Source: Rubellicoccus peritrichatus (GTDB lineage Bacteria > Verrucomicrobiota > Verrucomicrobiia > Opitutales > Cerasicoccaceae). From it: a stretch of 64,000 bases of DNA. Under the pieces are notes generated by a model. That model searched no databases and was not told the DNA's origin. It saw only the letters and a list, made by a program, of their open reading frames with translations. Location: NCBI RefSeq assembly GCF_033100135.1, contig NZ_CP136920.1, positions 4,335,001 to 4,399,000 of the forward strand. The letters run 5' to 3'. Positions within the stretch are counted from its first letter, which is position 1, and each line of letters opens with the position of its first letter. Shown piece after piece: positions 41,398 to 59,459 of the stretch. The position numbers and the translations under genes were made by a program.

Positions 41398-44300
41398 TTA
41401 ATTATTTATCACAGCTAATTCCTCGTCTGGACTGGTAATGAGCTTTTCAAGTGCAGCCAAGCGTTCGCCTTGGAGGTTTATTTCAGCCTGCTGTGTTGTT
41501 AGGACTTTTTCCTGCAAGTCTGCTCGCAACTTAAGCGCGGCAATCTGTGCCCGCTGCCGATTGATGGTCGCCTCCTGTTCATTAATAATGGCCTGTTGCT
41601 CCTGGATAGCCTTGATCGCCAACACACCGAAGGCGTCGTAGTTGACGGAGAGCCTCTCACGGCCTTCGTTCACAATATCGGGGAATAGTGGCAGCACTTC
41701 CTGAGCAATGACGCCGATCTGTGTACCGCCGTCGGGGTCATGCTTCCAGGTAAAGCTCCTCGGCTCGATCTGGAGGATGTTATCCAGCACTGGATCGATC
41801 GATGAAATGTTTTCCTTCAGCTTACGATCCGAGAGTGGATTGTAACCATAGGCAAAGACTTGCCCGCCGTCTGTTACGACGAAGCCACTGTCAGGACTAC
41901 TGCTAGTGCCGATGCCGATGGTAAAGACGTGGTCAAATCCTCCGGCGTTGTACTTGCCAATCACAAACTGATTGTCGAGGTAGGTACGAGTGCCCAGACC
42001 AAAAGCGGCGGAGTTCGCATGTTCGGCCACCGTGTTTTGCCCGGCAGCAAAACTCTGTGGTGCGGAAGCGGCAGTGAATCGACCAACAGCGACCGTATTG
42101 CCATTGCTGGCGGTATTGCCATCGCCAACAGCGAAACTATTGCTGCCACTGATCGTGTTGAAGCCGCCGACTGCTATAGAGCTATTGCCCGTGATTTGAT
42201 TAGTGGTCGCAGTCACAATTCTGTTGGTTATTACACCTTGATTGGCCGTCAGCGTTCCCTGAAGCGTGGCGTCGCCCGAGAGACCCACGGCAAACGCATT
42301 GCTGCGACTGGTGGAAGTGCCATTGCCAACCATGAACAAGTTATGGGTGACGGTGTTATCGTTGTATTGGCCGACAGCTGCCGATGAATTTAAACTGGCA
42401 ATCGTATGAAGTCCTGTGGCAAACGAGTCATTACCGGAAGCTGTCGTTTGAAAGCCAGTGGCCAGGCTGGCGGGGCCACTGGCCACCGTACCATCACCGA
42501 TAGCAGTGGCGTTTGATCCGCTGGCTCGCGTCGCGTTGCCAAATGCCGTTGCTCGAGCGGCATTAGCTACCGTGTTCAAGCCCCAGGTCGTACTGTAATC
42601 GGCAGTTGCGCCACGTAAGATATAATCGTCAAAATCGACAAGGCCGTTACCAGTCACATCCACGGGCCAGCTCAGAAAATCACTGACGGCGCTGCCCCAT
42701 GCCGTGGCAAAAGCTCCGGTGGCCTGCGTGTTCTGGCCAAAGGCGCGAGCATGCGAGCCGCTGGCATTGACGGACGTGCCAAGGGAGAGCGTCGTCCCGG
42801 TCAAATTAGTGCTGGGCACACTAACGGCGAGCGTACCTGTGGTAATCTTACTGGCGTCCAAATTAGGGATTTGGCTGACACTGAGTGTACCAATCCTGCT
42901 GGCGTCAAGGGTGCCCGACGTAATGTTGCTGGCGTCTAGACCCTGAATCCCGCTGCCGTCGGCTACTGTCAGGCCAGCAACGTTCAACTGGCCTGAAACC
43001 GTCAAAGTCTCAGCACTCCAAGAGTCGCCAGTCAACTGGTAACCATTGCTAAGTGAGTAAAAGCGCAACACCTCTGACGTGCTGCTGAGTGCATCACGAG
43101 CGACAAAACCCGTGCCAATGGCTTCAACCTGTAAGAGTTCGGGGCTATTACTGGACATGGCGGCAATTGGTCCGCTGGAAAGTAGCGCGGGCGTATTGCC
43201 GGGGGTGGAGATGTCGTAGAATCTCGCCGCCAGCGCGGTGAACAAGCCCAGGGTGTTGCCATTGATGGCGGCGCTGTATTGCAAGCCGTTGAGACTATTG
43301 GTTCCCAGGGAAACATCTTCCTGACTGGTAATAGCCGCAGGAACGCCGACATTGTAAATAGCCATGGTATGGCCGTTCTGCGTATTCAGGTAAGGCACGT
43401 AGAGCCGGTCACCACTGAGGGCAAACTGTCCAGCAGCAACACCAAGCGTAACTGGCGTCAGGCGTGTGGGATTGCCCGGCGTGCTGACATCAAAAACCTC
43501 AATGGTCTTGGCTGCGTCATTCCATCCATAAAGGACGCCGTTATGGTACTGGAAATGACTTAAAACGGTATTCGCCAGCGGGCCGTAGGATACTTCCCCG
43601 AGCGGACCTGATAGATTCGAGGCATTATAGGCGGTTATTTTTCCAACGGTGTTGTAGAGCCAAACAGTGCTGCTGTCGGTGGCGAGGGCGCCATCGGTGA
43701 ATCCGGTCAAATTCACTAACGAATCAAAGGAAAGCGGGGGCGCGTTAACATCGACTCTGGCCAATTCATAGTCTGATGCGTTTCGTTCATAAATGACATA
43801 TGCGTTGCTGGCGGTTCCGGTTACTGCGACGAAGTCGCCAAACGTAGCAAATGGCGCCAAGTCCAACTCATCGTTTAAGGCGGGAGACGCTAGGTCTGAC
43901 CCGTCAATGTAAGATAATAGCTGACCATTGAAGCTGTAGAAATTGTTGCCGACGGTGACCATATCCGTCACGGCAGGGACAGCTGTCTGAGTGATCTCAC
44001 CTTCGGCGTTGATTGCGCTGGTGGTCTGATCAATGACAGGCTGATTGGTATTCGGGTCAGTTAAGGTGGAAACCTTCAGGTTGGTCAGCGCACTGCCGTC
44101 ACCGACAAAGCTGGCCGCTGTTAACTGGTTCTGCACGGTGGCGTTGCCATTTTGAAAAACGACGAAGGCGTTGCTCGCGTTATCGGGTTCACCGAAATTG
44201 TCTATGCCGTTACCCACCATAAAGAGCTCCCCGGATACGGCGTTCGCATCGTTGTTGACCCCCACAGCCAGGGAATAGGGTTCATTCGCAAAAGTGAGGA

Positions 44301-45828
44301 AGCCCATAGCCATGGCATAACGGGTACTAGCGGTCGCTTGTCTGCCCAACGCGATGGTGTAGTCGGCAGTTGCTGAGGAATTGAGACCGAGTGAGATCGC
44401 ACCGATACCATCAGCCGTGTTGTTTAAACCCATCGCAATGGAGTAACTACCACTGGCCGTGGCCTGATTACCCATGGCGACGGATTGATCGCCACTGGCC
44501 GTGCTGGTGAAACCCATGGCAAAAGATTGCTTGCCACTAGCTTGGGTGTTCAAGCCCATGGCAACGCTGTATTCCCCAATGTTACTTTCCTCCCAGTTCG
44601 TGCTGCCGTTAACATCGGTAGCGCCGGCGCGGAAGGCAGCCTTACCCGGATGCCAAAACATGCGGGTGCCGGTCCCATCACCGCCGTTGGCCACGGCGTC
44701 TGGATCTGGATTAGCCCCTGAGACGAGTGCTCCGCCCACTGCGAAGCCGAAGTTGCCAAAATCCAGGTTATCTAGCCCCAGCGCGGGGATGCGAGCGACG
44801 TCTAAGGTGCCGGTAATTTTGGATGCATCGATCTCCGAAATGCGATCTGGTTGCAGGATGCCTGAGGTGATCCTGGTGGCGTCAATCGTGGCAGAACTGG
44901 AAAGAGCGTCGGCCGTCAGCGCACGATGGGCGAAAGCTGTCGGGGTGATTTGGATCGTTTCCAGGATGCTGAAGGTTCCGTCGCTGCCGTCGGTGCTGTC
45001 TTCACTGTACCAGACGCGCAGGAAGAGTTGTTCACTTTGCCAAACCGTGGTTGGAATCCGATGCATATTCGGCAGCAAGGCATCGCCAAGATTGACAGAA
45101 AACAGCCCTTGATTGACGGACAGGGGCACACCCGTGATGGGCTCTATAGTGAAAGGAGCTAATGGCTGATTCGCCCAAAATGTGCTCGTACTGGTCGAGT
45201 CGCTGGTCAAAGCAAACTTGAAGTAGCGCGTGCCTGTCGGTAGGACACCATTTTCCGAGACCCGTCCCTGATAGGGATGCGTAGTCATGTAATCGAATGC
45301 AACAACTACCTGTATACTATATTCGACGATCGTATCAACGGTTTCCTGTAGCCAGAAGGTGTAGGTGTCCGGGGTTAGAAACGGGGTTGTAGTTGGCGCC
45401 CCATCAGCAAAAGACAGCGAGAAACCGGCAACGTCGAAGCCGTAAGCGGCTTCAAGATCACTCTGCTGAATAGCAGAGGCATCCGCCTGGGTGAAAGCCG
45501 AAGTGAGTGCATACCCCATGAAGGACTTACCAGGCGGATTAGCGCCAAGATTTCCATAGGCGCCGACGGCCAAGGTGGCCGTAGCCCCCTCCGGGATCGT
45601 GAAGGTGAAGAAGTCAGCGTCGGAGCCATTGGTCGCGCCGGCGTTGCCGTTATTGCCGATCGTGCCGCCAACCGTGTTAATACCAGCTTGGAGCACTATG
45701 GGGCTCGGCGCCTGTGGATTGCCGCTCAGCTCGCCATCGATAAGTTCATCATAGGTGGTCGCGCTAAGGGAGAATGGCAGGGCGATTATTTTGACTATAG
45801 TAAGGGGAAGAAGAGAGTATTTTTTCAT
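41398..45828 (-). CDS. Giant fibre-like protein with YadA-type head repeats and Peptidase_S74 chaperone domain
   Basis: 1476 aa with a signal peptide (1-24). Parts: pre-peptidase-like beta domain (about 35-180, with DADFFTFTIPEGATATL); shared N-terminal module (about 190-310, YQGRVSENGVLPTGTRYFKF to AHRALTAD); YadA-head-like repeats of AxGxxSxAMG type (about 413-553); propeller-like region (about 620-915); more head repeats (about 1015-1160 and 1215-1305); Peptidase_S74 intramolecular chaperone from Ser1333 (LSDRKLKENI); C-terminal coiled coil (about 1405-1470). S74 domains trimerise the fibre and then cut themselves off before the conserved Ser. This is a trimeric surface or secreted fibre by inference. 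It is followed at 4 nt by the PEP-CTERM gene. Confidence 0.8.
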   Translation of the reverse strand: MKKYSLLPLTIVKIIALPFSLSATTYDELIDGELSGNPQAPSPIVLQAGINTVGGTIGNNGNAGATNGSDADFFTFTIPEGATATLAVGAYGNLGANPPGKSFMGYALTSAFTQADASAIQQSDLEAAYGFDVAGFSLSFADGAPTTTPFLTPDTYTFWLQETVDTIVEYSIQVVVAFDYMTTHPYQGRVSENGVLPTGTRYFKFALTSDSTSTSTFWANQPLAPFTIEPITGVPLSVNQGLFSVNLGDALLPNMHRIPTTVWQSEQLFLRVWYSEDSTDGSDGTFSILETIQITPTAFAHRALTADALSSSATIDATRITSGILQPDRISEIDASKITGTLDVARIPALGLDNLDFGNFGFAVGGALVSGANPDPDAVANGGDGTGTRMFWHPGKAAFRAGATDVNGSTNWEESNIGEYSVAMGLNTQASGKQSFAMGFTSTASGDQSVAMGNQATASGSYSIAMGLNNTADGIGAISLGLNSSATADYTIALGRQATASTRYAMAMGFLTFANEPYSLAVGVNNDANAVSGELFMVGNGIDNFGEPDNASNAFVVFQNGNATVQNQLTAASFVGDGSALTNLKVSTLTDPNTNQPVIDQTTSAINAEGEITQTAVPAVTDMVTVGNNFYSFNGQLLSYIDGSDLASPALNDELDLAPFATFGDFVAVTGTASNAYVIYERNASDYELARVDVNAPPLSFDSLVNLTGFTDGALATDSSTVWLYNTVGKITAYNASNLSGPLGEVSYGPLANTVLSHFQYHNGVLYGWNDAAKTIEVFDVSTPGNPTRLTPVTLGVAAGQFALSGDRLYVPYLNTQNGHTMAIYNVGVPAAITSQEDVSLGTNSLNGLQYSAAINGNTLGLFTALAARFYDISTPGNTPALLSSGPIAAMSSNSPELLQVEAIGTGFVARDALSSTSEVLRFYSLSNGYQLTGDSWSAETLTVSGQLNVAGLTVADGSGIQGLDASNITSGTLDASRIGTLSVSQIPNLDASKITTGTLAVSVPSTNLTGTTLSLGTSVNASGSHARAFGQNTQATGAFATAWGSAVSDFLSWPVDVTGNGLVDFDDYILRGATADYSTTWGLNTVANAARATAFGNATRASGSNATAIGDGTVASGPASLATGFQTTASGNDSFATGLHTIASLNSSAAVGQYNDNTVTHNLFMVGNGTSTSRSNAFAVGLSGDATLQGTLTANQGVITNRIVTATTNQITGNSSIAVGGFNTISGSNSFAVGDGNTASNGNTVAVGRFTAASAPQSFAAGQNTVAEHANSAAFGLGTRTYLDNQFVIGKYNAGGFDHVFTIGIGTSSSPDSGFVVTDGGQVFAYGYNPLSDRKLKENISSIDPVLDNILQIEPRSFTWKHDPDGGTQIGVIAQEVLPLFPDIVNEGRERLSVNYDAFGVLAIKAIQEQQAIINEQEATINRQRAQIAALKLRADLQEKVLTTQQAEINLQGERLAALEKLITSPDEELAVINN

Positions 45829-45864
45829 TTCTTATAGTGGATTTTTGCTTTAAAGTTTAATCTG

Positions 45865-46824
45865 TCATGGAGCGATGAAACCTACATCGACGGTGCTGAA
45901 AGCAGCCCCAGCCACGGGTGCGACATCACGGTATATTTCGGTGATGGTGCCGTCGCCATTATCGATGCTTTGATGCAAGATGCCGTTACGCCGGTTTTGC
46001 GTGACGAGGACGTCATCGCCGAAACCAATCTCTACATTGAAGCTGACTGGCACATCGGCCACTCGGGTGAATTGAATAGCCAGATGATCATCACCGCCCA
46101 CATCTACTGTCGTCGCCGTGATGACACTCGCCAGATCATACCTCAAAGGACTGAGTAAAAAGTAGTATTTGAAGTAGTTTAACCGACCATCTAACGCGGG
46201 ACTGGCTTCCGGGGAAGCAGAACCGCTGCCGGGCCGGAAATTTGCCAATTGCCAGGCATCAGGAATACCATCTCCTGAGAAATTATAGGGCGAGGTAATA
46301 AAGTTGTCTGTGTCAATATCCAGAATCTTAATGTCAAGCGTTCCGGTTTCCCCCAAGTAGTCAGCCCGGATTGTAACGGTAGTTTGCTCAGCCACTCCAT
46401 TCGGCGTTAATAAGCCCGCAACGATAGAATTGACTGAAGCGTGTTGACTGGACCATGTGGCTGTATCGACCGCATCGTAAGTTGTTGCATCTGTATTGTT
46501 TGCTATCGCTGCAAGCTGAAGAGTGGCATTATCGGCAACCTCTGGACTGCCTCCTCCGGGTATTTCAACCGTCAGTGCATCTATGTCGAAGAGTTGCCCA
46601 GGATAACCTGAGCGCAGTGTATTTGAACCAACAGTATTGTTCCCACCAAGCGATGCGAGAGAACTATTACTAACCACATTGTTCGTGGAATTCATCCCAC
46701 CAGCACTGAAGCTGCTGACTTCCAGAGTCGCTCCCGATAAGTAGACTGAAGTGATTAATGTACTAATGGAAAAGACACATAAGTCTCTGTATAAGTTTTT
46801 ATAAACGCATATTTGATGATTCAT
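45865..46824 (-). CDS. Secreted Big2/TSP3-like protein, module copy A
   Basis: 319 aa from the ATG at 46824. This start matches the paralog at 59460 and gives the same 26-nt overlap with the upstream PEP-CTERM gene; the in-frame ATG at 46872 is less likely. An export segment (residues about 10-32) is followed by a Ser/Gly-rich stretch, a Big2-like Ig domain (about 80-165, with ATWSSQHASVNSI), and a Ca-binding-style segment (DIDTDNFITSPYNFSGDGIP, then DAWQLANF) like the TSP3/dockerin-like ends common in Verrucomicrobia. The protein ends in a beta-rich 100 residues. Function unknown; coupled expression with the PEP-CTERM protein suggests that they work together. Confidence 0.7.
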   Translation of the reverse strand: MNHQICVYKNLYRDLCVFSISTLITSVYLSGATLEVSSFSAGGMNSTNNVVSNSSLASLGGNNTVGSNTLRSGYPGQLFDIDALTVEIPGGGSPEVADNATLQLAAIANNTDATTYDAVDTATWSSQHASVNSIVAGLLTPNGVAEQTTVTIRADYLGETGTLDIKILDIDTDNFITSPYNFSGDGIPDAWQLANFRPGSGSASPEASPALDGRLNYFKYYFLLSPLRYDLASVITATTVDVGGDDHLAIQFTRVADVPVSFNVEIGFGDDVLVTQNRRNGILHQSIDNGDGTITEIYRDVAPVAGAAFSTVDVGFIAP

Positions 46825-47677
46825 ACTGATCGTGGGATAAAGCCCCCCGACGCAATCGCCTCTTAACTGCAACCGCTAATGCTAACAACGCAATGGTAGA
46901 TACCCAGAGGCTCGGTTCTGGGACGGCTTGTAAATTATCTAGATAGGCTTCTGGTGAACTACCGTCCCCATCCCCTCCCCCGTCAACCAGTGCAAGTCGG
47001 AAACTCTCAATCATTCCAGAGTACGTGACAGCCCCAAACTCTTCAAAAAAAGTCGTCCCGGATGCCAGACTCCCGATAGACAAACTATCCTGTATCAAAT
47101 CGATACCCCAGCTATTGGCTGCAACATCGATATCAATCGATACGGACATAATGCTATCATATGCAAAGGTTCCAATCTGCTGTGTCCCTCCATGGACCAA
47201 AATACGACCCGTGCCGCTAGTCCCAGTCGCAGCAAAATCAATACGCTCTACATTTGGTGTATCAATAAGGAGGGAAAAATAGTCCCGCTGATTGTCGGGA
47301 ATGAATGCTCCGCTCGCATCATCAACAAAATTACTCAATACGAGATCAAAAGAGATGCTCAGACTGTCGACCTCAGCAGAAACAAGATCGAACTCGTACT
47401 GAGAAATAGTAAAGCCCGACTGCAGCTGAGGAATAAGCGAAAGCGACTTGGTGGCAAATGGGGTTGCTCCAGCAGCCATAACTTCGGACGTCCCACCGAG
47501 TAAGGCACTTGGCGACGTACGGGGCGATGCACCGTTGTCAAGAGCAACGGGATTGCCAATAACATTAGAAGCATTATCAAAATCGATGAAATACTTGGTA
47601 CTCAACCCAATAGCGATCGAAGGGGTCGTCAAAAACAGGCAAGCTGCAGCCAGCCTATAAGTATTAGGGAATTTCAT
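46799..47677 (-). CDS. PEP-CTERM protein, module copy A
   Basis: 292 aa with a signal peptide (1-24), a beta-sandwich body starting LSTKYFIDFDNAS and a PEP-CTERM signal (AVPEPSLWV, a hydrophobic segment, KRRLRR). Unusually the chain continues 15 residues past the basic cluster (GALSHDQYESSNMRL); these are coded partly in the 26-nt overlap with the next gene. The paralog at 60400 has the same layout. Exosortase would be expected to cut at the PEP motif and discard the tail, so the extension may be harmless. The body resembles LamG-like PEP-CTERM proteins; function unknown. Confidence 0.8.
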   Translation of the reverse strand: MKFPNTYRLAAACLFLTTPSIAIGLSTKYFIDFDNASNVIGNPVALDNGASPRTSPSALLGGTSEVMAAGATPFATKSLSLIPQLQSGFTISQYEFDLVSAEVDSLSISFDLVLSNFVDDASGAFIPDNQRDYFSLLIDTPNVERIDFAATGTSGTGRILVHGGTQQIGTFAYDSIMSVSIDIDVAANSWGIDLIQDSLSIGSLASGTTFFEEFGAVTYSGMIESFRLALVDGGGDGDGSSPEAYLDNLQAVPEPSLWVSTIALLALAVAVKRRLRRGALSHDQYESSNMRL

Positions 47678-47848
47678 TTGGGAGCGTTTAACTCTGTAGT
47701 GGTGAGAGCAGTTCCAAATTGTTCTGCTATAATATTTTTCAACCTAAAATACACTTAAGTCAAGTCAATGTATTCATTTATGACTATATTATGATTATTA
47801 ATGAACTCATAAGCATCTAATAAATCATTTAAACATCTAAAAAAACAA

Positions 47849-50800
47849 TCATAAGGAACCATTATGAACATCCATCGTAGCAGAGACAATTGTGCGCTTT
47901 AGTTCCGATTCGATCTTTTCGAGACGCCGATTTTGTAGTTCCAACTGTGCCTTTATGGTACCCATATTATCGACTTTAGACTGTAAATCTATATTCGCGG
48001 CCTTGAGCTTTTGAATCTCATCTGCCATATTCGCAAGCAAAGTCTGCTGCTTTTCCTGATACAAATTCGGCAAACCGACGACAGCGTTTACCTTCTTGAG
48101 GCTCGCATCATTTGACTCATCCCAGGCGCGACCAATGATTAAATTGTACTGCACAGGCGTAATATTATCCGAACTGACGGCGATAGCGGTCCCATCATTT
48201 TGACCGGATGCGATGAGGTAATCGCCGAACGCGACTGGGCCAAGCGTCTTGACATCGACCTGACCAACGAAAGCCGTTATGACGTAGGCATCTTCGTGTG
48301 CATCTCCCGGATGGTTACCAACGACGATGGGACGCGTTGATGCGACCATCACCCAATCCGCGCCCTTTGTTTGTTTGCTGACCTTGCCTCCAAAGACGCC
48401 CACGACCTCAGCGTTGTCGATGACTTCATCCGGGTTTAAGCGTGGCAGATACTCGGCGTAGTCCGCCGAGCCAGATTGAAAAATGATACCACCACTACTA
48501 TTACCACTAATCTCACCTAACTGAATTGGATTAAAGCTATTGTCCCGCCCCAAGAAGGTAATGTATTGGTCGCCGCTACTAGGCGTGGGGTGGTTATGCC
48601 TAAGAGCCAACAAACCGGAATTGTCAGAGTTCGTATCAAAAATGTAAGCCAAGTGGTTTTCTATGTCTATAGGGTCGCCATCGAGGTCACCTTCGATATG
48701 CAGGCCTCGCAACGCCGGGCTGGAAGTGCCTACCGCGAATGACTCTGTTACGATGGATGCCGTTTCCTTATGCACGCTGAGTACCGGCTTGCGCATGTAG
48801 GTTGTGATATAAAAATCGGCAGTAGAAAAGATACCAGATCTTCCTCCTGAATAGGGGTTACCGGTTCCATAACCCAGGTTGAACCGGTTGGAGAAATCAG
48901 ATGTAAATTCGATGGTATACTCCACCCCGGCGGTTAAGGTCAACAGACTGCTCTCGGGGATCAAAATCGCGGTTGGGGCAGTTGCATTGATTGCAACCGG
49001 GAAATCAGCTAGCAGCGTGCCGCCGGTGCCCCGCCCGCTATAGACTCTGACGGTAATGTTCGCGACACCGCTGAAACCTCCGATTTCTGCATCAAAGTAA
49101 ATGAGCTCACCGGTTGCCGATGGCGTAAAGCTCTGCCAGGCACTCTGTACCCCATTGTCAATCGAACTTGCGGCACCTTCCGGGACATCAACATCGATTG
49201 CCGTGGCGATAAACTGGAAGTCATCTTCGGCGACGAGGTTGCTGGTGGCGATGGTCGTGTTCGTGATCGTTGTTGCGTTAACGTCCGCGGCATTGACGTT
49301 TGTCGCAGCGATCTCCGTGCTGGTCAGTGTGCCATCGACTTCCAGCTCGGTAGAGGGGCTTGTCGTGCCGATGCCAACGTTCCCTGACTGGGCAATCTGA
49401 AAGGTCGTCGCTGGCATGTAAGTCTGGAAAAAGAAGTCACTCGTAGCGCTGTCGTTGGAACGCCCACCTGCATATTGATTGGATCCATTATTCCAGCTAA
49501 AATCATTTCCAAGTACGACGATCTCATCTTCTGCCAGCTCGGGGTCATTGGGTGCAAGCGCGTCTGCTGCAATGGTGTAAACATTGCCCAACGTAAGCGT
49601 CACAACCTGATCATCTGGAATAGAAATATTCTTATTAGAATTTGAACTGGCTATACCGACGTTGAAGTTGGCCAGCTCTGCTCCGCCGGTTCCTTCACCT
49701 TCATAAACGCGGAATTTAATGCCGACGCTGAATGCGGTGCCTCTAATTGCCAGTCTCATAAAGCTTAGCTGGCCGCTACGCCCGGCGGTAAAGCTCTGCC
49801 AAGCCGAAGTTCGCCCAAGAAGGTCAATGCCACTGCTACCCGTGGGAAAACTATCCTGATCCAAGGCAACCGTCCTGATATCGAAATCGCTCGAGCTGGT
49901 GATGTTATTCAAATCGTCGGCATTCAAGCTGAGCCCGGAAAGGTCGGCGCTGTGCATCGTGCCGGCCTCGGTAATTTCAAGTGTCGAGCCGTTGAGTGAG
50001 ACGTCTGTGATGAGCTCGTTGCTGGGGCTGGCGTCGGCGTCGTTCGCAGCGCCAGAGACGAGTGCACTCGCGGGGATCGTGTTTGCGGTGATAAAGGCAC
50101 CGTCGAGATCCGTGATATTTGCGCCATTTCCTGCAAGCGTGGTGGCGTTGATAGAGCCGGCAGAGACATCGCTGATGCGCACCTGCAAGGTGCCGTCGTC
50201 GATGTCCAGCCGCGTGGGATCACTCACATAGGTTTGGAAAATGAAGTCTTCGTTGGCGCCTGTGTTGAAACCTCTACCTGGGTATTTGCTGTCCCCGCGG
50301 TGTGTCCTGAAATCAACCGAATTAGAATTCTGTCTCACAAAAGAAAAAGCGTATTCATTACCTTGGATGAGATTTATGGTGTCCTGTTCAGGGATGACCA
50401 GTTCAATGGAGTAGTCGCTGTTGCCACTCGGGTAATCAACCGTGAAGGTTGTCAACACGGGGTCTGACAAGCTATCGCCGTCATAAACCTTAACCTCCAA
50501 AGTATTCGGTAATGTAGCAGTCGCGCCGCCATAAATGACTATCCGCTGGAGCGTGCTGTCGGCTCCGGCAAAGAAGGTTTGGCCATAAGTTTTGGGATTA
50601 AAACTGCCAAATGTAGAATCAAGTTGGCCGTCTATGCCGATGGAAGTGTCAAAGGAGTCCTGATCGAGCATGGTGCCTGCAGTATCAATAGACAAGCTGC
50701 CATCGACATTGATGTCCGAGAGCTTGACACTACCGCCAAGGCTGAGGACATCCGTTGAACTGGGATCGGAACCGATGCCAATATTACCCGTGGCATCATC

Positions 50801-53329
50801 GATGGTCAGGCGTGGGACGTTATTCGTGTAGAAGTTTTTCAGATGGTAATCGTTGCTGCCACCGAGTGAGGAAGTGCCAGGGTAAGTGGAGTCGCTGCGG
50901 TACTGCCAATTGAAAAACACACCCGTGCCTAACGGATCGATTGCCGCCAGCTCGACGGTATATTCGGTGCCCGCCGTCAGGTTGGGGTAGCTACCTGCTG
51001 GTATGCTAATGGGGGTTGCGGTGCCTGTCATCGACGTGGTGAAGCTCAGGAACTGCGGTCCACCCGTTCCAGCTCCGAGATAAAAACGAACCTGAACATC
51101 TATCGGGCTGCCACTGGCGCTAACGGCATTGGTCTCGATACTGCTAAGGGCGCCGTCCTGCACCGCTATAAAGCTCTGCCAGGCATTACCGCTGCTAAAT
51201 ATATTCGTGTTCGAACCAAAGGTAGTAGTGTCGACGTCATCAACGCTTTGTTGGGTGGCAAAAACGATGTCGCCCGTGGATGCAAGGGTATCGACATTCA
51301 GGCTATCCAGGCTCAGTCCATCAAGCTCGACCGTGCGTGTTGTACCCGCTTCGGTCAGGCTGATTTGGCTGCCGTTGAGGGAGAAGGCGGTGATGAGCTC
51401 ATTGGCCGGATCACCATCCGCGTCGGATAATCCTGACAGGTCGACCGAAGTGGTGCCGCCAGCATCAGTTAGATCGAGGGTGGAGCCATTCAGTGTTGCA
51501 CTGGTTATGAGTTCGTTGGTTGCGTCCGAGTCACCATCATCGATGACTCCGGGAGCCAGTTTGGCCGCAGTGATGGTACCATCAGAGATGTGGCTTCCGG
51601 CCAAGTTCCTCAGGCTTGAGCCGTCACCAGCAAAAGCAGATGCCAGCAGAGTGCCCGTGACATCGAGCGCCGGGATATCTGACACCTCACTAACGCTGAT
51701 GGCTTGATTCACTCGGCTGGTGGCATAGATGAAACCATTGCTGTCGAAGACTACATCAGCGTTATTGTCCATCACAGTAGCTTGATAGGCATTATTGATA
51801 AGCGTGGGGCTAAGTGGGTCACTGATGTCGATCAAGGCAATGCCACTACCTACGTTATCCATCGAAACCACGGCATAATCTCCCTGTATGCTTACGCCGC
51901 TGGGATTACTGATCGAGCCGTCTCCCGGCACCAGGTTTGCCACTACGACAGGCGTTTCAGGGTTAGCAAGATCCATGACAACGAAATTCTGACTACCTCT
52001 GCAAACCGCGTATAGGTAGTTGCCGTCCACTGTCAGATCATAGACGTTATCCAGAGCCACGCTGTCCGTAATCTGGTTAGCTCTGAAAAAGCTTTTGGAA
52101 CCACTCACATCCATCACGAAGATGCTGTCGGCGGACCCATGAGTCACGTAAGCATAGCCATTGGCGTAGGCTACATTATTGTGGTCGGTGAAATTGCCGG
52201 TGTATCGATCGGTGCCAATTAAAAACGGGCTACTGGGATTTTGAATATCCACAACGTAGAAGGTGCCAAAGCCGGTTGAGACATAGGCGTTGATTCCGTC
52301 AACTGCGATCCCTCGACTGTCTCCTTGCAGGCTGGAGTTGGATCGATATCCACCTATTACGGCTGGATTGGTTGGATCATTAATGTCAATGACGGTAACG
52401 CCACTGTTGCTGCCACCACCAACAGTAACATAGGCATGATTGCCGTCTATGGCAATCCCCCAAGGTCTGTCCCAAATCGCACTCGTACCGCCGTTGCTTG
52501 TGACGGCGGCGACTTGGTGCGGCACTCTGGGATCACTGATATCATAAACGAAGAATGTATCGCTTTCTGAAGCGGCTGCATACAAATAGTCGCCACTGAC
52601 AGCGATACCGCGAAACCCGTTGGTTACGTTGGAATCAACGAGGCTATTAATGTAACGCACGCCATCGTTGACAGAAAGGAGGATACTGTCGTCGCTATGA
52701 ACAATCTGTTGGGCTGACACTGCGGAACCAACCGTCAGGCTGCCGGTGTCGCCAAGTTTCGCAACAGCAACCGTACCGTCCTGTAGGTTGCTACCATCGA
52801 TATTGACCAAACCTGAGCCATCCACGCCGTCAGCCAAACCGCTGGCCATGGTGGCGGTCGTAGCTGTTGCGGCAGTTGTCGCGTTGTCTGCCGTTCGGGC
52901 TCGATGCGCGTAGGCAACGGGTTGGAGTTCAATGGTGTCCAACAGCGCGAACGTTCCGTTGCTGCCGTCAGTGCTGTCTTCACTATACCAGATGCGCAGG
53001 AAGAGCGAATCGTAGTTCCAGACGTTCGTTGGGATGGGCGCATTCGTAGAGCTGTCGTCTCCAAGTTGAATGGAGAAAAGCCCGGTCGTCACACCAACGC
53101 CATGGCCGGTTGACGGCTCGGACCCAGCCGTCGATGAGTTATCATTGGACCAGTAAGAAACCGTTGGGCTCTGATCGTCATCAATGATGGCGAATTTAAA
53201 GTAGCGGGTTCCAGTTGGGAGGATATCGTTTTCGGAAACGCGGCCTTCATAAGGAAGCGTGGAGGGAAGGTCCGCATAAAGCATTGAAATACTTAGTATT
53301 GCGTATAACGCTATTGTAAGATTCTTCAT
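47849..53329 (-). CDS. Giant LVIVD-propeller fibre-like protein with four beta-sandwich repeats
   Basis: 1826 aa with a signal peptide (1-19). Parts: shared N-terminal module (about 22-145: LPYEGRVSENDILPTGTRYF to AYAHRARTAD); LVIVD-type beta-propeller (about 223-550, repeats of the GNHAYV...VIDINDPTNP kind); GDGSSLRNL element; D-x-D-x-D-x-x-NEL repeats (about 590-673); four copies of a beta-sandwich of about 165 residues (about 683-850, 880-1043, 1150-1326, 1370-1530) joined by GNVGIGTTSP-type linkers; DYAEYLPRL domain (about 1620-1750, with GKVSKQTKGADW and VGQVDVKTLGPV); C-terminal coiled coil (from about 1755). It looks like a trimeric extracellular fibre. The ligand and role are unknown. 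Confidence 0.78.
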   Translation of the reverse strand: MKNLTIALYAILSISMLYADLPSTLPYEGRVSENDILPTGTRYFKFAIIDDDQSPTVSYWSNDNSSTAGSEPSTGHGVGVTTGLFSIQLGDDSSTNAPIPTNVWNYDSLFLRIWYSEDSTDGSNGTFALLDTIELQPVAYAHRARTADNATTAATATTATMASGLADGVDGSGLVNIDGSNLQDGTVAVAKLGDTGSLTVGSAVSAQQIVHSDDSILLSVNDGVRYINSLVDSNVTNGFRGIAVSGDYLYAAASESDTFFVYDISDPRVPHQVAAVTSNGGTSAIWDRPWGIAIDGNHAYVTVGGGSNSGVTVIDINDPTNPAVIGGYRSNSSLQGDSRGIAVDGINAYVSTGFGTFYVVDIQNPSSPFLIGTDRYTGNFTDHNNVAYANGYAYVTHGSADSIFVMDVSGSKSFFRANQITDSVALDNVYDLTVDGNYLYAVCRGSQNFVVMDLANPETPVVVANLVPGDGSISNPSGVSIQGDYAVVSMDNVGSGIALIDISDPLSPTLINNAYQATVMDNNADVVFDSNGFIYATSRVNQAISVSEVSDIPALDVTGTLLASAFAGDGSSLRNLAGSHISDGTITAAKLAPGVIDDGDSDATNELITSATLNGSTLDLTDAGGTTSVDLSGLSDADGDPANELITAFSLNGSQISLTEAGTTRTVELDGLSLDSLNVDTLASTGDIVFATQQSVDDVDTTTFGSNTNIFSSGNAWQSFIAVQDGALSSIETNAVSASGSPIDVQVRFYLGAGTGGPQFLSFTTSMTGTATPISIPAGSYPNLTAGTEYTVELAAIDPLGTGVFFNWQYRSDSTYPGTSSLGGSNDYHLKNFYTNNVPRLTIDDATGNIGIGSDPSSTDVLSLGGSVKLSDINVDGSLSIDTAGTMLDQDSFDTSIGIDGQLDSTFGSFNPKTYGQTFFAGADSTLQRIVIYGGATATLPNTLEVKVYDGDSLSDPVLTTFTVDYPSGNSDYSIELVIPEQDTINLIQGNEYAFSFVRQNSNSVDFRTHRGDSKYPGRGFNTGANEDFIFQTYVSDPTRLDIDDGTLQVRISDVSAGSINATTLAGNGANITDLDGAFITANTIPASALVSGAANDADASPSNELITDVSLNGSTLEITEAGTMHSADLSGLSLNADDLNNITSSSDFDIRTVALDQDSFPTGSSGIDLLGRTSAWQSFTAGRSGQLSFMRLAIRGTAFSVGIKFRVYEGEGTGGAELANFNVGIASSNSNKNISIPDDQVVTLTLGNVYTIAADALAPNDPELAEDEIVVLGNDFSWNNGSNQYAGGRSNDSATSDFFFQTYMPATTFQIAQSGNVGIGTTSPSTELEVDGTLTSTEIAATNVNAADVNATTITNTTIATSNLVAEDDFQFIATAIDVDVPEGAASSIDNGVQSAWQSFTPSATGELIYFDAEIGGFSGVANITVRVYSGRGTGGTLLADFPVAINATAPTAILIPESSLLTLTAGVEYTIEFTSDFSNRFNLGYGTGNPYSGGRSGIFSTADFYITTYMRKPVLSVHKETASIVTESFAVGTSSPALRGLHIEGDLDGDPIDIENHLAYIFDTNSDNSGLLALRHNHPTPSSGDQYITFLGRDNSFNPIQLGEISGNSSGGIIFQSGSADYAEYLPRLNPDEVIDNAEVVGVFGGKVSKQTKGADWVMVASTRPIVVGNHPGDAHEDAYVITAFVGQVDVKTLGPVAFGDYLIASGQNDGTAIAVSSDNITPVQYNLIIGRAWDESNDASLKKVNAVVGLPNLYQEKQQTLLANMADEIQKLKAANIDLQSKVDNMGTIKAQLELQNRRLEKIESELKRTIVSATMDVHNGSL

Positions 53330-53401
53330 CTTATAATGAGTAAAGTTTGAGGTAATGATTCTCTTCCAAAAAATTACACTTTGACTGATTACTTGAGTGA
53401 G

Positions 53402-56400
53402 CTATTGATTATGGGCTAATTTATTTGATGGTTTTAGACTCGCCTCGATGGAGCTCAATCGATGCAGCAGCTCCTTTATCTGTTTTGATTGATTGGCATG
53501 CTCGACCTGTATCTGCTCTAATGCGTCAATCTGTTCTTTAAGCACTGCAATCTCTGCTTGTTGTTTTGCCACCTTTTTAAGTAAATCAGCAGACTCATTT
53601 CGCTGCATTTCGACCATCGCTTGCGGCAGGCCAACGACAGTATTGATCTTTTTCAGGCCGGGTTCGCTGGACTCGTCCCAGGCGCGACCAATAACCAGAT
53701 TGTATTGTGCTGGGATGAGGTTACCTGGACTGACCGCAATGGCAGTTCCGTCATTGCGGCCCGATGCAATCAGATAGTCACCGGCTTGCACCGGGCCGAC
53801 CGCTTTGACCTCAACCTGCCCGAGAAAACCGATGGCTTCGTAGTGGTCGACCAACGCCTCGCCGGGATGATTACCGAGAACGATTGCGCGACTGGACACC
53901 GCCATGATCCAATCCGCTCCCTCAGTTTGTTTGCTGACTTTGCCGTTGAAGACACCGACGACATCACTGCGGTTGATGTCTTCATCGATGTTTAAACGCG
54001 GCAGATACTCTGCGTAGTCACCAGTTGACGAGTTGAACTGCAACCCTCCCGCTCCATCACCTTTGATGGCGCCAACGGTACCAAGAGACCCTCTAAACGT
54101 GATGAAGTTTTGATTAGTAGCTGGGGCACTGCTGCCTAGCTCCAGCAATAATACATCTGCGTGACTCGACGTGCTTGGGTTACGGAAAATAGCGGCATGA
54201 TCACCTGGATTAAATGCTACGGTAGTTCCAGGATGATCATGCTCAACTTGCAGTTTGGTTGCTGGCCCTCCAGCGAGGCCTATGCCAACTGAAGACACTC
54301 TGAGATCACTGATATCAACCGTGTGGTCGACTCCACCTTCGGTGACGACGATATCAGAACCGCTTAAGGCGACGCCGGATATGGTTGCCCCGTCTAAGAC
54401 GCCATCAGCCAGCTTGGCCGCTGTCACGGAGCCATCGAACAAATGTAAGCCATTCAAGTTCGTTAAGCCAGAGGCATCGCCAACGAATGTCGCTCCCGCT
54501 TCGAGTCCGAAAGTCGAACTGATTTCCAGGACGCGTAATCCATTGGTTTGGTTGGCGACATATATGTAATTCCCCTCGACCGCCAAACCTATCGCACCAC
54601 TAGACTGAGCAATAGTAGCAACTCGAACTGGATTTGTAGGGTCAATGATATCATAGATTCGTAAGTCACTACCAGTGCGTGCCACGTAGGCATAGTTATC
54701 CACAATCTTAATGTCTTGAGTGCCACCGACCGAATCGTCAAGGGTGGTGACAAAAGCTGGATTAGCCGGATCAACCAGATTATAAACCCTCACTCCCTCT
54801 AACGAATCTCCAACGTACAGATGACTATTGGTCACCTCGATTGCTAAAGCGGTTCCTGAAAAATTCGTTTCTCGTATTTTTACCGGATCACTCTTATTCG
54901 TTATATCCATCACAGCAAAACCAAAACCGTGCAGGGGCAAATAGGCGTAGTTGCCATTGATCGCTACCCGACGGGCGCCACCATTGGTATCCTCATATCC
55001 TTGCGATCCGCCCAATGGTAGCACCGGGTTGGATGGATCACTGATGTCATAGATCTGCAGCCCCCCGCTACCATTTGCTAAATAAGCATAGTTACCTTCG
55101 ATCGTCACCTGATCGGCGTCTGCATCATTGCTCGGACTCATAGGAAAAGTGCGAACAAAAGTGGGGTTCGTGGGGTCAGACACATCGTAGATACGAACCC
55201 CATCATCGTCAGCGGAAAGATAGGCGTAGTTACCGGTGACAACAATCCCTTGCGCCGTGTCGTTGCCATCATCGATATGTCCAACCGATTGAGGATTCGT
55301 TGGATCGCTGATATCATAGATCCGCAGGCCATCTAGCCAATTCGCGACATAAGCGTAGTTGCCCGAGACAAAGACCTTGCGCGCTTGACCGCCATTAGCA
55401 TCACCAATACCGACCTCTCTAAGCGTAGAAAAATCGAGACTATTGTAAGTAAATGGGCCCGCCAAGTTTGAGGGGTTGAGGTTAGTCAGGCCTGAGCCAT
55501 CGCCCGTGAACACAATGTTGCTGTCGAACTTCGCCGCAGTGATCGTGCCGTCCTGCACATTGCCTCCATCCAAATTCGTCAGGCTGGCGCCATCCCCCAC
55601 AAACGACTGAGCGGTTATGGAATCCTGTGTGACTACTAATCCATCGTTGGCCAGTTCCATAAAGCTCGTCATAATATAGTCAGCTCCCTCTGGATCAAAG
55701 CTCGCATAGCCACTGGAATAAGCTCCGGGGTTCTGATAGCCAATGGAGATCAAGTTATCTGGTCCCGATGATGCGCTCACACTAAGTACCGCAAACAATA
55801 TTTTATCCGAGTTCAAACTGGGCCGATCCATCTCTGGAATATCAATGCATCCGCCGGCGCTAAGAAACTCGCTGACGCTAACCACAATATGTGCGAGATC
55901 GTTTAAGGCCTGATCTCGAACAAATAATTGGACGCTCGTGACATCTACACCCAAGGTAACTTGCTCGAACTTGATAGCGGCCAGTTTACCCGTTAGTCGC
56001 GAAGTAAATTGTTGAGCTATTACGGAACTCTGGCGTGTATCGTCAACTGTACCGTCCGCAGGATCACCGGTATACTGGTCAATCACAATGGAACCCGCTG
56101 GCATTAGTGTTAAGCTGCTATCGGGACTACTCAGATCCCCCAAAACCAAACTTGATAAATCCGCCTTATGCCCAACGCCAGCCTCGTTTACCGTTAAAGT
56201 AGAACCATCGAAAGAAAACCCCGTGATTAGTTCGTTCGCAGGATCAGCATCAGCATCATCCTCTAGTTGCGAAAGATCGGCAGTACCGCCTCCATTGCCC
56301 AACGACAATTGCGCCGTTGAGGTATTGAAACTTAGAACTTGGATTTCATTGGCGGGATCAAAATCGGCATCATTGATGAGGCTCGACAGTTCTGCTGTTC

Positions 56401-58591
56401 GCACATTCCCCGCCTCATTAATGCGCAACTGCGTTCCGTCCAGCTGAAGATTCGTAATGATCTCATTCGCCGGATCGGAGTCGGCGTCATCTACTAATGA
56501 CGACAAATTGACTGACGTGGCGCTTGTTAGTGACAACTCCATCGTGCTGGTATTGTAACTTAAGTTCTGAATCTCGTTGGTTGGGTCGGCGTCTGCGTCG
56601 TTGATGACGCTGGACATGTCCACGGTGTTCGTTGCTCCACCAAGGTAACTGAGCTCGAGATTGCCATTCTGAGCGAGGTTTAGCCCAGTCAACATCCCGG
56701 CGTTGACGGACCAGTCGATCATCTCACCCTGGAAAACCTTTATAGTATCGTTTGACCTGTCGTTGTAAGCAATGACAGGCTTTCCATTAATGAAAGCCAG
56801 AGCACAACTTTCCCCGACCTTAGCTGTGCTGCCATCCAATGTTAAATTTATAATAGGTTGTGTTCCGATGGGAGAGCGAATCGTAACCTTAAGATCATCC
56901 GTATCCGATTTATGGTGCGCGACCATCGGTTGACCATTGACCTCAATCAGAGAAGGGCTCTCACCAACGGAACCCGTATCCAACTGCACAACTGGGAGCC
57001 AATCGCTGGAGTCTGTCGGCGTTGCCTTGTTCGCAACGGTATACGCTAGAGTGCCTTGGTGAGGTTGATAGGCATAGGCGACCGCAGGGAATCCGCCAAC
57101 TTCGGCCAGAGAAAGGCCAAAAATGGATCCGCCAGCAATGGTGTATTTCGACCAGTTTGCAGCCGTTTCCGCAGCGCTCGAATTGGGAGCATGGGCAAAT
57201 GCCAGTGCGCCCCCATCGTAAAGAATCATTGCTCGGTCATTGATCAGAGCCAACGAAACCCCGCTAAAGCCATCGCCTGTATCAATCTGTTCGATGCTCC
57301 AAGTTTCACCAGCCTGGTAGTTCGCATCATCGGCCATTGCAAAGAATAGATTGATTCGATCTTGATCAAAATAAGCGATGGCCGCGCGCCCATCAACCAC
57401 AGCCAAGGCTGATGCATTGCTGGCCGTACTGGGATCAACCGAGATTATTTCCCAATCATTCCACTGGGTCTCGGTTGCAGGGTCGGTGACGTTGGCGATC
57501 GCGAACCAAAGAGAATTCGATAGCCCTGATGTTTCGACAAAAGCGATCCCCGGCTTTCCTCCAATACTAGCCAGCGAAGTTTGGAAAAATACATCCTTGT
57601 CACGCTCGACGACTACCCGTTTCCACGTGGTGGTTGAGGTTAACTCAGCATCATTGGCGATGGCAAACATGAGCCTGTTTCCGCTCCCATTGTCCTGAGT
57701 ATAGCTGATCGCCACGCGCCCGCCGATCTCGGCAATCGAAATGGACTGGGCGGGGCTTCCGGAATCAGGAACCACGACCACTGGAAAGCCGCTGCCGGTA
57801 ATATCCAGGTCAAATTGGTCGTTCGTTAAATTCGAAAATGCAGTAGTTTGACCTTCTCCGTGACCACTGAGTTTCACATGTGCCGGTGGTTGATTTACCG
57901 AGATATAAACCGGCCGCGTTACCCCCTCAAATACGGGCGCCAAACCTGAGCCTAACTCGTCAAAGGCGAGATTTTCCAACTGCACGGCATCTTCAGCTAT
58001 ATGAGATGCGTTAACCGCATCTTCGCCCAACGCAGCGTAATTAACCGATCCAGGGGCTAATGAACTTGAGCCGATGCTACCCGCAAGAATCGTTGCCCCA
58101 TCAAGATTGACTAAACTGCTGCCGTCAATGTTGCTACCCAAAAGCCCGGATGCAACTTTTGCACGGTGGGCGTGGGCGACTGGAACAATCTGAGTCGTCG
58201 TCAATAAATCGAAGGTTCCATCGGTTCCATCGGTGCTGTCCTTACTCAACCAAACCTTGAGGAAAAGCGTATCATTTTCCCAAACTGCTGAAGGTATGGG
58301 CGAGTTATCCGCACCTGGGCCATTGCCTAAAACAATTGAAAACAATCCGTTCGTGACGGTCACTCCAAGGCCATCCAATGGCTGAGTATGATCCGCTGGA
58401 TCACTACCGTCATTATGCCAAAGATGCGCTGAGTTAAGACCATCACTCAACGCGAAACGCATGTAGAAATCACCATCGAGTAACAAGCCATCGTCGGAAA
58501 CACGTCCCTGATAGGAGAGCGTGTTGGGGATCGCAGTGAGCTCAAAAGAGCAGACCAACAGCATCAAACATAAAGTAATGATCTTGTTCAT
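53402..58591 (-). CDS. Giant LVIVD-propeller fibre-like protein with DxDxDP repeats
   Basis: 1729 aa with a signal peptide (1-20). Parts: shared N-terminal module (about 22-140: LSYQGRVSDDGLLLDGDFYM to AHAHRAKVA); a region with repeated GGxPAVAY / RAAIAYFD motifs, possibly a propeller (about 250-640); DADxDPxNEI repeats (about 657-817); one copy of the beta-sandwich seen four times in the neighbour (about 825-990); GDGASLTNL and GDGSGLTNL elements; LVIVD propeller (about 1054-1364, GNYAYVANWLDGLRIYDISD-type repeats); DYAEYLPRL domain (about 1530-1655); coiled coil to the end. It lies 72 bp downstream-adjacent to the 1826-aa gene in the direction of transcription and is a clear paralog. Confidence 0.78.
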   Translation of the reverse strand: MNKIITLCLMLLVCSFELTAIPNTLSYQGRVSDDGLLLDGDFYMRFALSDGLNSAHLWHNDGSDPADHTQPLDGLGVTVTNGLFSIVLGNGPGADNSPIPSAVWENDTLFLKVWLSKDSTDGTDGTFDLLTTTQIVPVAHAHRAKVASGLLGSNIDGSSLVNLDGATILAGSIGSSSLAPGSVNYAALGEDAVNASHIAEDAVQLENLAFDELGSGLAPVFEGVTRPVYISVNQPPAHVKLSGHGEGQTTAFSNLTNDQFDLDITGSGFPVVVVPDSGSPAQSISIAEIGGRVAISYTQDNGSGNRLMFAIANDAELTSTTTWKRVVVERDKDVFFQTSLASIGGKPGIAFVETSGLSNSLWFAIANVTDPATETQWNDWEIISVDPSTASNASALAVVDGRAAIAYFDQDRINLFFAMADDANYQAGETWSIEQIDTGDGFSGVSLALINDRAMILYDGGALAFAHAPNSSAAETAANWSKYTIAGGSIFGLSLAEVGGFPAVAYAYQPHQGTLAYTVANKATPTDSSDWLPVVQLDTGSVGESPSLIEVNGQPMVAHHKSDTDDLKVTIRSPIGTQPIINLTLDGSTAKVGESCALAFINGKPVIAYNDRSNDTIKVFQGEMIDWSVNAGMLTGLNLAQNGNLELSYLGGATNTVDMSSVINDADADPTNEIQNLSYNTSTMELSLTSATSVNLSSLVDDADSDPANEIITNLQLDGTQLRINEAGNVRTAELSSLINDADFDPANEIQVLSFNTSTAQLSLGNGGGTADLSQLEDDADADPANELITGFSFDGSTLTVNEAGVGHKADLSSLVLGDLSSPDSSLTLMPAGSIVIDQYTGDPADGTVDDTRQSSVIAQQFTSRLTGKLAAIKFEQVTLGVDVTSVQLFVRDQALNDLAHIVVSVSEFLSAGGCIDIPEMDRPSLNSDKILFAVLSVSASSGPDNLISIGYQNPGAYSSGYASFDPEGADYIMTSFMELANDGLVVTQDSITAQSFVGDGASLTNLDGGNVQDGTITAAKFDSNIVFTGDGSGLTNLNPSNLAGPFTYNSLDFSTLREVGIGDANGGQARKVFVSGNYAYVANWLDGLRIYDISDPTNPQSVGHIDDGNDTAQGIVVTGNYAYLSADDDGVRIYDVSDPTNPTFVRTFPMSPSNDADADQVTIEGNYAYLANGSGGLQIYDISDPSNPVLPLGGSQGYEDTNGGARRVAINGNYAYLPLHGFGFAVMDITNKSDPVKIRETNFSGTALAIEVTNSHLYVGDSLEGVRVYNLVDPANPAFVTTLDDSVGGTQDIKIVDNYAYVARTGSDLRIYDIIDPTNPVRVATIAQSSGAIGLAVEGNYIYVANQTNGLRVLEISSTFGLEAGATFVGDASGLTNLNGLHLFDGSVTAAKLADGVLDGATISGVALSGSDIVVTEGGVDHTVDISDLRVSSVGIGLAGGPATKLQVEHDHPGTTVAFNPGDHAAIFRNPSTSSHADVLLLELGSSAPATNQNFITFRGSLGTVGAIKGDGAGGLQFNSSTGDYAEYLPRLNIDEDINRSDVVGVFNGKVSKQTEGADWIMAVSSRAIVLGNHPGEALVDHYEAIGFLGQVEVKAVGPVQAGDYLIASGRNDGTAIAVSPGNLIPAQYNLVIGRAWDESSEPGLKKINTVVGLPQAMVEMQRNESADLLKKVAKQQAEIAVLKEQIDALEQIQVEHANQSKQIKELLHRLSSIEASLKPSNKLAHNQ

Positions 58592-59459
58592 AATTAGTAG
58601 TAGTTTTATTTTTTGAAATCAATCCAACTGCACCAAGCATGGACAACAGCAACTGATACAGTAGCCCGCAGTAGTGCCAATGCCCTTAAGGCAAAACATG
58701 CAGTAGCCAAACTCCCCAAACATTTGGGTATTCACCTCAACAAGGAGTCTCCCTGTCATAATAGTTCAATCTCCGGGGTTAGAATATATTAGTAAACGTC
58801 TATTTCACTGATACCAATGACACAATAAGCCATCATCAAAAATCGATAGCTTATCAGCAAGGACCTGCATTGATTATCATTAATTTAATCGGCTACTACA
58901 CAAGAATATTTAGTTTTTATAAAATTTTATTAATACAATAAGGATTATTAAAATCATGAAAAGCCAAAATCAGAGTCCTTTATTCTTATTACATCAACTC
59001 TACTCGATTTCTATAGGAGTAACATAAAGTCAAACACCGACCATTCATTGATAATGGATCGAATGACTTAAGAATAAGCATCCGGAACAGCTCAAGGCTC
59101 TTGAAGTACCACCTCTTCATCTTTTTCCAGCAATAGCGCTTCAAATACTATAAGGAGTTTTCCTTGAGAAGAGAATGCCAACTGTAGAGAAAACCCATCC
59201 GCTTAGCTTAAGCCAAGTATATATCAATCTCCATCGACTAGGTCACGATAGCACTGTTGAAGGCATGATCAGATGGATAAGAGTACACAGAGAGAACCAC
59301 CTGCAGTTATCTCAACCTGGCAAAGCACCATTGTCGGATACGCTCCCTGGCAAGGAAGCGCATCCGAAATGGTTATTGAGTCGAAAACACTCATCGCAAT
59401 AGCAGTAGCAACAAAATGAACCTAAATGTATGTAACGATAAATAATAGTAGTGTGATAA
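58592..59459. other. 868-bp intergenic region, AT-rich, with a candidate operator
   Basis: This gap lies upstream of the 1729-aa fibre-like gene and should carry its promoter. A CCCAAA-CA-TTTGGG palindrome (58715-58728) and three CAGTAG repeats (about 58660-58710) are the only promoter-side structures I see. A hairpin with one mismatch spans 59335-59366. The short frames at 59175-59402 (plus) and 59312-59524 (minus) look like chance frames. No gene is supported. Confidence 0.5.
58715..58728. promoter_or_regulatory. Palindrome CCCAAA-CA-TTTGGG
   Basis: A perfect 6-bp inverted repeat with a 2-nt spacer, 124 bp upstream of the 1729-aa fibre-like gene. Its size fits an operator better than a terminator. 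No second copy was noticed. Confidence 0.3.

Follow-up and report, generated by a model that had tools for sequence, protein, structure and literature searches.

The window analysed here is a 64,000-nucleotide stretch of the Rubellicoccus peritrichatus genome. It contains three large genes that form intact open reading frames on the minus strand, at 41398–45828, 47849–53329 and 53402–58591, exactly where a first-pass annotation had placed three giant proteins. These genes encode proteins of 1476 aa (fibre 1), 1826 aa (fibre 2) and 1729 aa (fibre 3), respectively. Fibres 2 and 3 each comprise a signal peptide, a conserved N-module, an LVIVD propeller, a G2-type chaperone and a coiled coil. Fibre 1 comprises a signal peptide, an extra region of ~155 aa, the N-module, YadA-head repeats, a weakly supported propeller, an S74 chaperone and a coiled coil. 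The GDGSGLTNL elements reported previously were found as GDG(S/A)xLTNL-like elements, numbering 2, 2 and 3 per protein. Read along the minus strand, the cluster begins with a PEP-CTERM-type protein of 290 aa (60400–61272) and a small secreted protein of 321 aa (copy A, 59460–60425), which are followed by fibre 3 and fibre 2. It continues with a PEP-CTERM-type protein of 292 aa (46799–47677), a second small secreted protein (copy B, 45865–46824, with its ATG start at 46824), fibre 1 and, 4 bp after fibre 1, a second kind of PEP-CTERM-type protein of 251 aa (40638–41393). The set of PEP-CTERM protein, small secreted protein and fibre occurs twice in the window. The PEP-CTERM and small-protein genes overlap by 26 bp, identically in both copies; the two small proteins are 59% identical, and the chaperone regions of fibres 2 and 3 share 57% identity. 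The cluster is a local duplication plus one extra fibre. Between copy A and fibre 3, 868 bp (58592–59459) hold no convincing gene, the other gaps in the cluster being <200 bp; a fibre promoter may lie inside this gap.

The N-module spans ~130 aa. In an alignment of the three proteins and their relatives, its copies in the window are 49–57% identical to that of fibre 2, and a six-frame search with the module profile recovered them with E values of 1e-51 to 1e-56. The module lies directly behind the signal peptide in fibre 2 (52883–53269, minus strand) and fibre 3 (58145–58531, minus strand), at residues ~20–145. In fibre 1 (44902–45285, minus strand), it occupies residues ~182–305. Because ~155 residues precede this internal copy, the earlier statement that the three proteins share one N-terminal start is right in content, but not quite in position. 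AlphaFold predicts that the fibre-2 module is a beta-sandwich (mean pLDDT 79, pTM 0.75). Foldseek searches with the module gave no match at E <0.001, and Foldseek combined with VIA-align pointed to generic Ig/FnIII-like sandwiches (best Z 6.3), which does not establish a new fold. Pfam holds no model for the module. At loci L024 (10612–12879), L093 (7605–10076), L158, L161 and L166, the N-module is split by an insert of ~60 or more residues that bears repeated 'GxGYTSxPxVTI'-like strands.

Of 40 module relatives, 27 match the NCBIfam model NF053851 (Bdello_MAT_N; "mosaic adhesive trimer family chimeric fiber protein"), with a best E value of 1.1e-6. However, this model did not match any of the three window proteins directly, which counts against the kinship, and no relative reached its curated cut-off of 60 bits, the top score being 34.5 bits. 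Elsewhere in the phylum, the module takes a classic form, 'NYQGRL...G..ydl.f.lYda..GG...v.v.nG.f.v.lG....LsPRq.l...PYAl.A'. Proteins carrying this form match NF053851 at 1.7e-8 to 2e-7, and the window-type and classic-form profiles align in hhalign at 99.1% (E 4e-19). These successive matches support a chain that runs from the window module through the phylum profile and the classic form to the mosaic adhesive trimer (MAT) N-domain. By these family profiles, the module is remotely related to the N-domain of the Bdellovibrio MAT fibres, although the link is weak when each window protein is taken alone.

The source genome contains nine module genes: two with an S74 end, five with a G2-like end and two with another tip. 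They are a mosaic repertoire behind one module. Two module proteins of this genome (L021:5504–11062 and L099:5078–10174, at 2.09 and 5.68 Mb) lack a chaperone and have a common tip of ~80 aa, a third kind of end with the pattern 'GxGYxI..T.NTTGxYxI.W...F......NA.F.F.AIGx'. A scan of genome contigs with profile A3 yielded one named relative, the metagenome-assembled genome Verrucomicrobiia Co_bin.226. Across the order (L131–L152), many module genes sit where a draft contig ends, which is to be expected of long repetitive genes; module counts from draft genomes are therefore too low.

All three fibres had been said to carry propellers. LVIVD repeats (PF08309) are clear in fibre 2 (residues ~215–560, 51650–52687, minus strand; 3.6e-17) and in fibre 3 (residues ~1067–1370, 54482–55393, minus strand; 7.6e-51), but the claim is weakly supported for fibre 1, in which residues ~590–960 are weakly similar to the fibre-2 LVIVD region (blastp 7e-6, two-sequence database) and Pfam gives no propeller match. 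The PDB contains no relative of the fibre-1 propeller region or of the fibre-3 repeat region. Fibre 1 also bears YadA-head repeats (PF05658, 1.7e-29), absent from the first-pass annotation, the first block of which lies at residues ~415–530 (44239–44586, minus strand). These repeats are shared with the trimeric autotransporter adhesins YadA, EmaA and Ata. Unlike those adhesins, fibre 1 ends in an S74 domain and has no YadA membrane-anchor barrel; Pfam matched the C-terminal anchor barrel in none of the three fibres.

Fibre 1 was correctly described as ending in a Peptidase_S74 domain (41503–41868, minus strand), which matches PF13884 at 3.4e-14 with 53.3 bits against a cut-off of 22 and is followed by a coiled coil. 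It contains the Ser–Lys dyad S1333-DRKL-K1338, with S1333 (41830–41832; SDRKLK) as the predicted cleavage serine, and SDxxxK is kept in 32/32 S74 fragments at related loci, one of which is a duplicate. The C-terminal position, the Ser–Lys spacing (S, K+5) and the coiled coil that follows are as in the Peptidase_S74 chaperones of endosialidase and the MyRF ICA, in which the dyad is S911/K916 (endoNF) and S587/K592 (MyRF) (PMC8326128). Fibres 2 and 3 had been assigned a different kind of end, a DYAEYLPRL domain plus coiled coil. Both elements are present (the domain at 48044–48646 in fibre 2 and 53600–54199 in fibre 3, minus strand), but the domain is not of an unrelated kind. PF11962 (Peptidase_G2) gives 16.7 and 18.8 bits with whole fibres 2 and 3 and 22.2 bits with the isolated fibre-2 domain, below its cut-off of 25, and is matched by 7/8 members of the DYAEYLPRL family (best 5.6e-7). 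When 177,635 PDB sequences were searched with the domain profile, the top three matches were all tailspike chaperones: Dpo31 (3e-4), phi29 gp12 (0.0096) and a C-terminal fragment of phi29 gp12 (0.055). The Asp, Ala and Glu of its D-x-A-E motif are invariant in the family alignment (A8), and the domain shares this motif, its C-terminal position and the subsequent coiled coil with Peptidase_G2 of phi29 gp12 (PDB 6qz9/3gqh) and Dpo31 (PDB 28nb). Judged from these profile comparisons, it is a divergent Peptidase_G2 relative of the phi29-tailspike chaperone type. Given the S74 match in fibre 1 and the Peptidase_G2 homology in fibres 2 and 3, both ends are phage-type trimerisation chaperones, expected to self-cleave and to do the same job rather than to form two functional classes.

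Such ends raise the question of whether the fibres are domesticated or resident phage tail fibres, from a prophage remnant or a tailocin, rather than a cellular adhesin. The S74 and G2 domains, the PHROG tail-fibre matches of fibre 1 and the occurrence of S74 relatives in phages all fit this explanation. However, unlike those of phage chaperones, the window domains sit in secreted cellular proteins, with signal peptides on all three fibres. Neither the module nor its partner is credibly matched in 50,697 phage records, a scan of viral contigs gave no module relative, and the module–partner pair is present in many families of the phylum. A phage origin of this sort is therefore highly improbable. 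Among 72,556 plasmids, the module had no credible match and the partner had two (E 0.1 and 0.5), covering its Ig-like middle part only.

The closest known counterpart is the MAT superfamily of Bdellovibrio bacteriovorus (Caulton et al. 2024; PMC10769870), whose trimeric fibres are displayed at the surface, bind prey or glycans and self-cleave, and for which the surface element that binds the N-domain was left unidentified. Like MAT proteins, the window fibres combine a signal peptide, one conserved ~130-aa beta-rich N-domain and a long fibre with a distal end that is either S74 or non-S74, and occur as several members per genome, here as nine module genes. The MAT arrangement of a domain right after the signal peptide is found in fibres 2 and 3, but not in fibre 1 with its extra region ahead of the module; the MAT mosaic of a shared N-domain and swapped C-terminal ends is found in the source genome. 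In contrast to MAT, the sequence similarity is remote, below the NF053851 cut-off, and the window fibres have G2-type chaperone ends, LVIVD propellers and YadA-head repeats. They are also accompanied by an adjacent conserved small partner, known here from Verrucomicrobiota genomes alone. Thus, the kind of fibre is known, and the variant, with its G2 ends, propellers, YadA heads and dedicated partner, is new. The first-pass annotation had suggested an undescribed surface appendage; a cellular, phage-like and probably trimeric fibre is well supported, but, as a variant of the Bdellovibrio MAT fibres, it is not wholly undescribed. Overall, most of what the first-pass annotation observed holds, and its interpretation holds in part.

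As partners of these fibres, PEP-CTERM proteins had been proposed, and the adjacency of the three PEP-CTERM genes holds. These genes are interleaved in the window cluster, and the source genome encodes five exosortases and has ~88 genes that score above the PEP-CTERM cut-off, as might be expected if the fibres were ordinary MAT-like adhesins and the PEP-CTERM proteins were their true anchors through the exosortase system. With so many such genes, however, an occasional PEP-CTERM neighbour is no surprise. In the set of loci examined, the 290-aa type was found beside fibre genes in the two window copies and otherwise at a single locus (L023), from another genus of the same family; its absence from nearly all other fibre loci led us to reject it as the conserved partner. 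Fibre loci L023 and L267 also have relatives of the 251-aa type nearby. Many fibre loci have no PEP-CTERM gene at all, and neither the fibres nor the conserved partner carry a PEP-CTERM tail, in which they differ from PEP-CTERM/exosortase surface proteins. Anchoring by these proteins is accordingly an improbable explanation; they are mostly local, copy A of the 290-aa type being a local accessory, and the conserved partner is a motif-bearing small protein.

This partner is represented in the window by the two ~320-aa proteins at 45865–46824 and 59460–60425, which the first-pass annotation had overlooked. A search with one small secreted protein (P0006) found four copies in the source genome and relatives in other families, and each full-length relative directly adjoins a module gene. 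Copy A consists of a signal peptide, a GGG/GYxGQL motif, an Ig-like domain, a GDGIPDxWQ element and a C-terminal beta region. The motif, ~50 aa just after the signal peptide, reads 'GGG..Y....SLG..GG....GY.GQL', whereas the C-terminal parts of the family vary widely (Ig-like, TSP3, a YFFRLRV-ended beta domain and others). Across the phylum, a full-length partner profile (A2) mostly matched a common C-terminal 'DGLPDxWE' region of unrelated large proteins, and we therefore used an N-half profile (A4) and a motif profile (A9). The latter is a 49-column profile of a shorter element following the signal peptide, which is common to neighbours at L093, L158, L166 and L130 that the N-half profile missed. 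It matches copy A at 60180–60329 (E 4.5e-15) and copy B at 46582–46728 (E 1.7e-13), both on the minus strand. No model in Pfam or NCBIfam describes the motif, and the AlphaFold model of the partner has a pLDDT of 37. One partner and two motif members gave a weak match, at best 8e-5 and far below the cut-off, to NCBIfam NF058579, 'CPR-type pilus protein PamT'; at L254:4772–5683, the N-terminal ~90 residues of the partner are the part that matches, which we treat as a lead only. A literature search found no paper on PamT. The motif, as 'GGG...Y.L.GTIGQP....Y.L.GGFW', and the module presumably also occur in Chloroflexota, Bacteroidota and others.

Linkage between partner and module genes was assessed in 223 genomes of the order and 240 genomes of the phylum. 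In the phylum set, the N-half profile gave 20 full-coverage matches at E <1e-15. A module gene lies within ~6 kb on the same contig for 19 of them; the remaining one, at a contig start, has an S74 gene right beside it that is cut by the contig end. In the order set, about two thirds of 31 strong matches have an adjacent module. Nearly all of the others belong to one family, f2, whose partner has a different C-terminus and stands at a fixed place beside other genes. The chaperone-free module proteins of f2 often have no adjacent partner and its partners are often alone, which counts against the interpretation given below. At the f2 loci (L221–L229, L151, L146 and L159), the partner N-half is joined to another C-terminal domain (WFGxFY...W..H...GWLY...), usually near recF/ruvC/queA-like genes, and some f2 module genes continue into parts that resemble formylglycine-generating enzyme; these names come from reading the sequences, not from a family search.

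With E values up to 0.01, the motif profile A9 gave 26 matches in the order; with E values up to 0.001, it gave 29 in the phylum. Together, these correspond to 46 distinct loci. We inspected 44 of these, leaving out two weak loci (E 0.008 and 0.009), and all 44 adjoin a module gene or, at contig ends, an S74 gene. Since the A9 seeds were themselves picked by adjacency, the fair test consists of the partner-driven genome searches and the nine loci found only after A9 was fixed, all nine of which also comply, some with a classic module. Automatic scoring placed a module within 1.5 kb of the motif in 44 of the 46 fragments, 43 of them on one strand; in the other two, a classic-form fibre is the immediate same-strand neighbour. 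The open frames are mostly separated by tens of bp, and one pair (G421) is divergent. Because a module gene with its 1.5-kb surroundings makes up ~1% or less of such genomes, as estimated from gene numbers and genome sizes, chance does not explain this strict linkage of motif and module genes. Moreover, partner and module distances are correlated (r 0.62, n=27, permutation p 2e-4, with the species tree not corrected for).

All S74-ended module proteins with complete surroundings have a partner. In the source genome, a G2-ended trio at ~2.943–2.962 Mb and the module protein at 5.676 Mb have none in reach; evidently, not every copy requires an adjacent partner. As fibres with S74, G2 and other tips all keep the partner, its presence goes with the module rather than with the tip. 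The first-pass annotation had named as a point against its own proposal the possibility that the module occurs alone, with no conserved partner; instead, a partner was found to be conserved phylum-wide. In several families of the phylum, S74-ended YQGR fibres also have giant secreted proteins (~2600–2840 aa) as neighbours (L095:10869–19394, L097:3–8183, L084:11391–19499, L130 and L142, the last of 2587 aa), those at L084 and L095 sharing an ending (DIKxxFxTYSYSGN). They are absent from the window and are possibly a further component.

Taken together, these observations suggest that the cluster is a duplicated MAT-type surface adhesin locus, in which self-cleaving trimeric fibres are encoded next to a small secreted cognate partner that serves as base or anchor, and we consider this interpretation probable. 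Each fibre would be exported through its signal peptide. Its C-terminal phage-type chaperone, S74 or G2-like, would help trimerisation and then cut itself off. The propeller or YadA-head domains and the distal stalk would point away from the cell, with the shared N-module at the fibre base, and the small secreted partner would probably dock on the N-module and so keep the fibre at the surface. Gene order and co-conservation are what point to this binding. The partner is a natural anchor candidate, because the linkage is strict and because its sole constant part, as in the fibre, follows the signal peptide.

Alternatively, the partner might be a secreted accessory, such as a folding or export helper, a tip ligand or a co-expressed adhesin, that does not bind the N-module. 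Linkage alone cannot separate binding from co-regulation, and the highly variable C-terminal parts of the partner would suit such a role. On the other hand, the only conserved piece of partner and fibre alike is the one right after the signal peptide, and the partner follows the module through every change of tip. We therefore regard an accessory role as rather unlikely, although it is the alternative to be taken most seriously. A broader version of the anchor proposal is that the motif protein supplies the base or anchor still missing for MAT-type fibres. Its ~50-aa motif would capture, at the outer surface, the N-domain of a trimeric fibre that cleaves itself, and this dedicated two-gene adhesin system would extend across Verrucomicrobiota and possibly operate in a similar way in Bdellovibrio and other phyla. 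We put this forward tentatively, as an idea somewhat more likely to fail than to hold.

MAT fibres serve prey recognition by a bacterial predator (PMC10769870). A strictly co-encoded family of small proteins, unmodelled by Pfam and NCBIfam, provides a concrete and testable first candidate for the element that holds such fibres. The fibre architecture, in which either of two phage-type chaperones is combined with exchangeable heads, is spread over Verrucomicrobiota. Genes of this type are commonly annotated as just 'tail fiber domain' or hypothetical, and many of them would gain a role.
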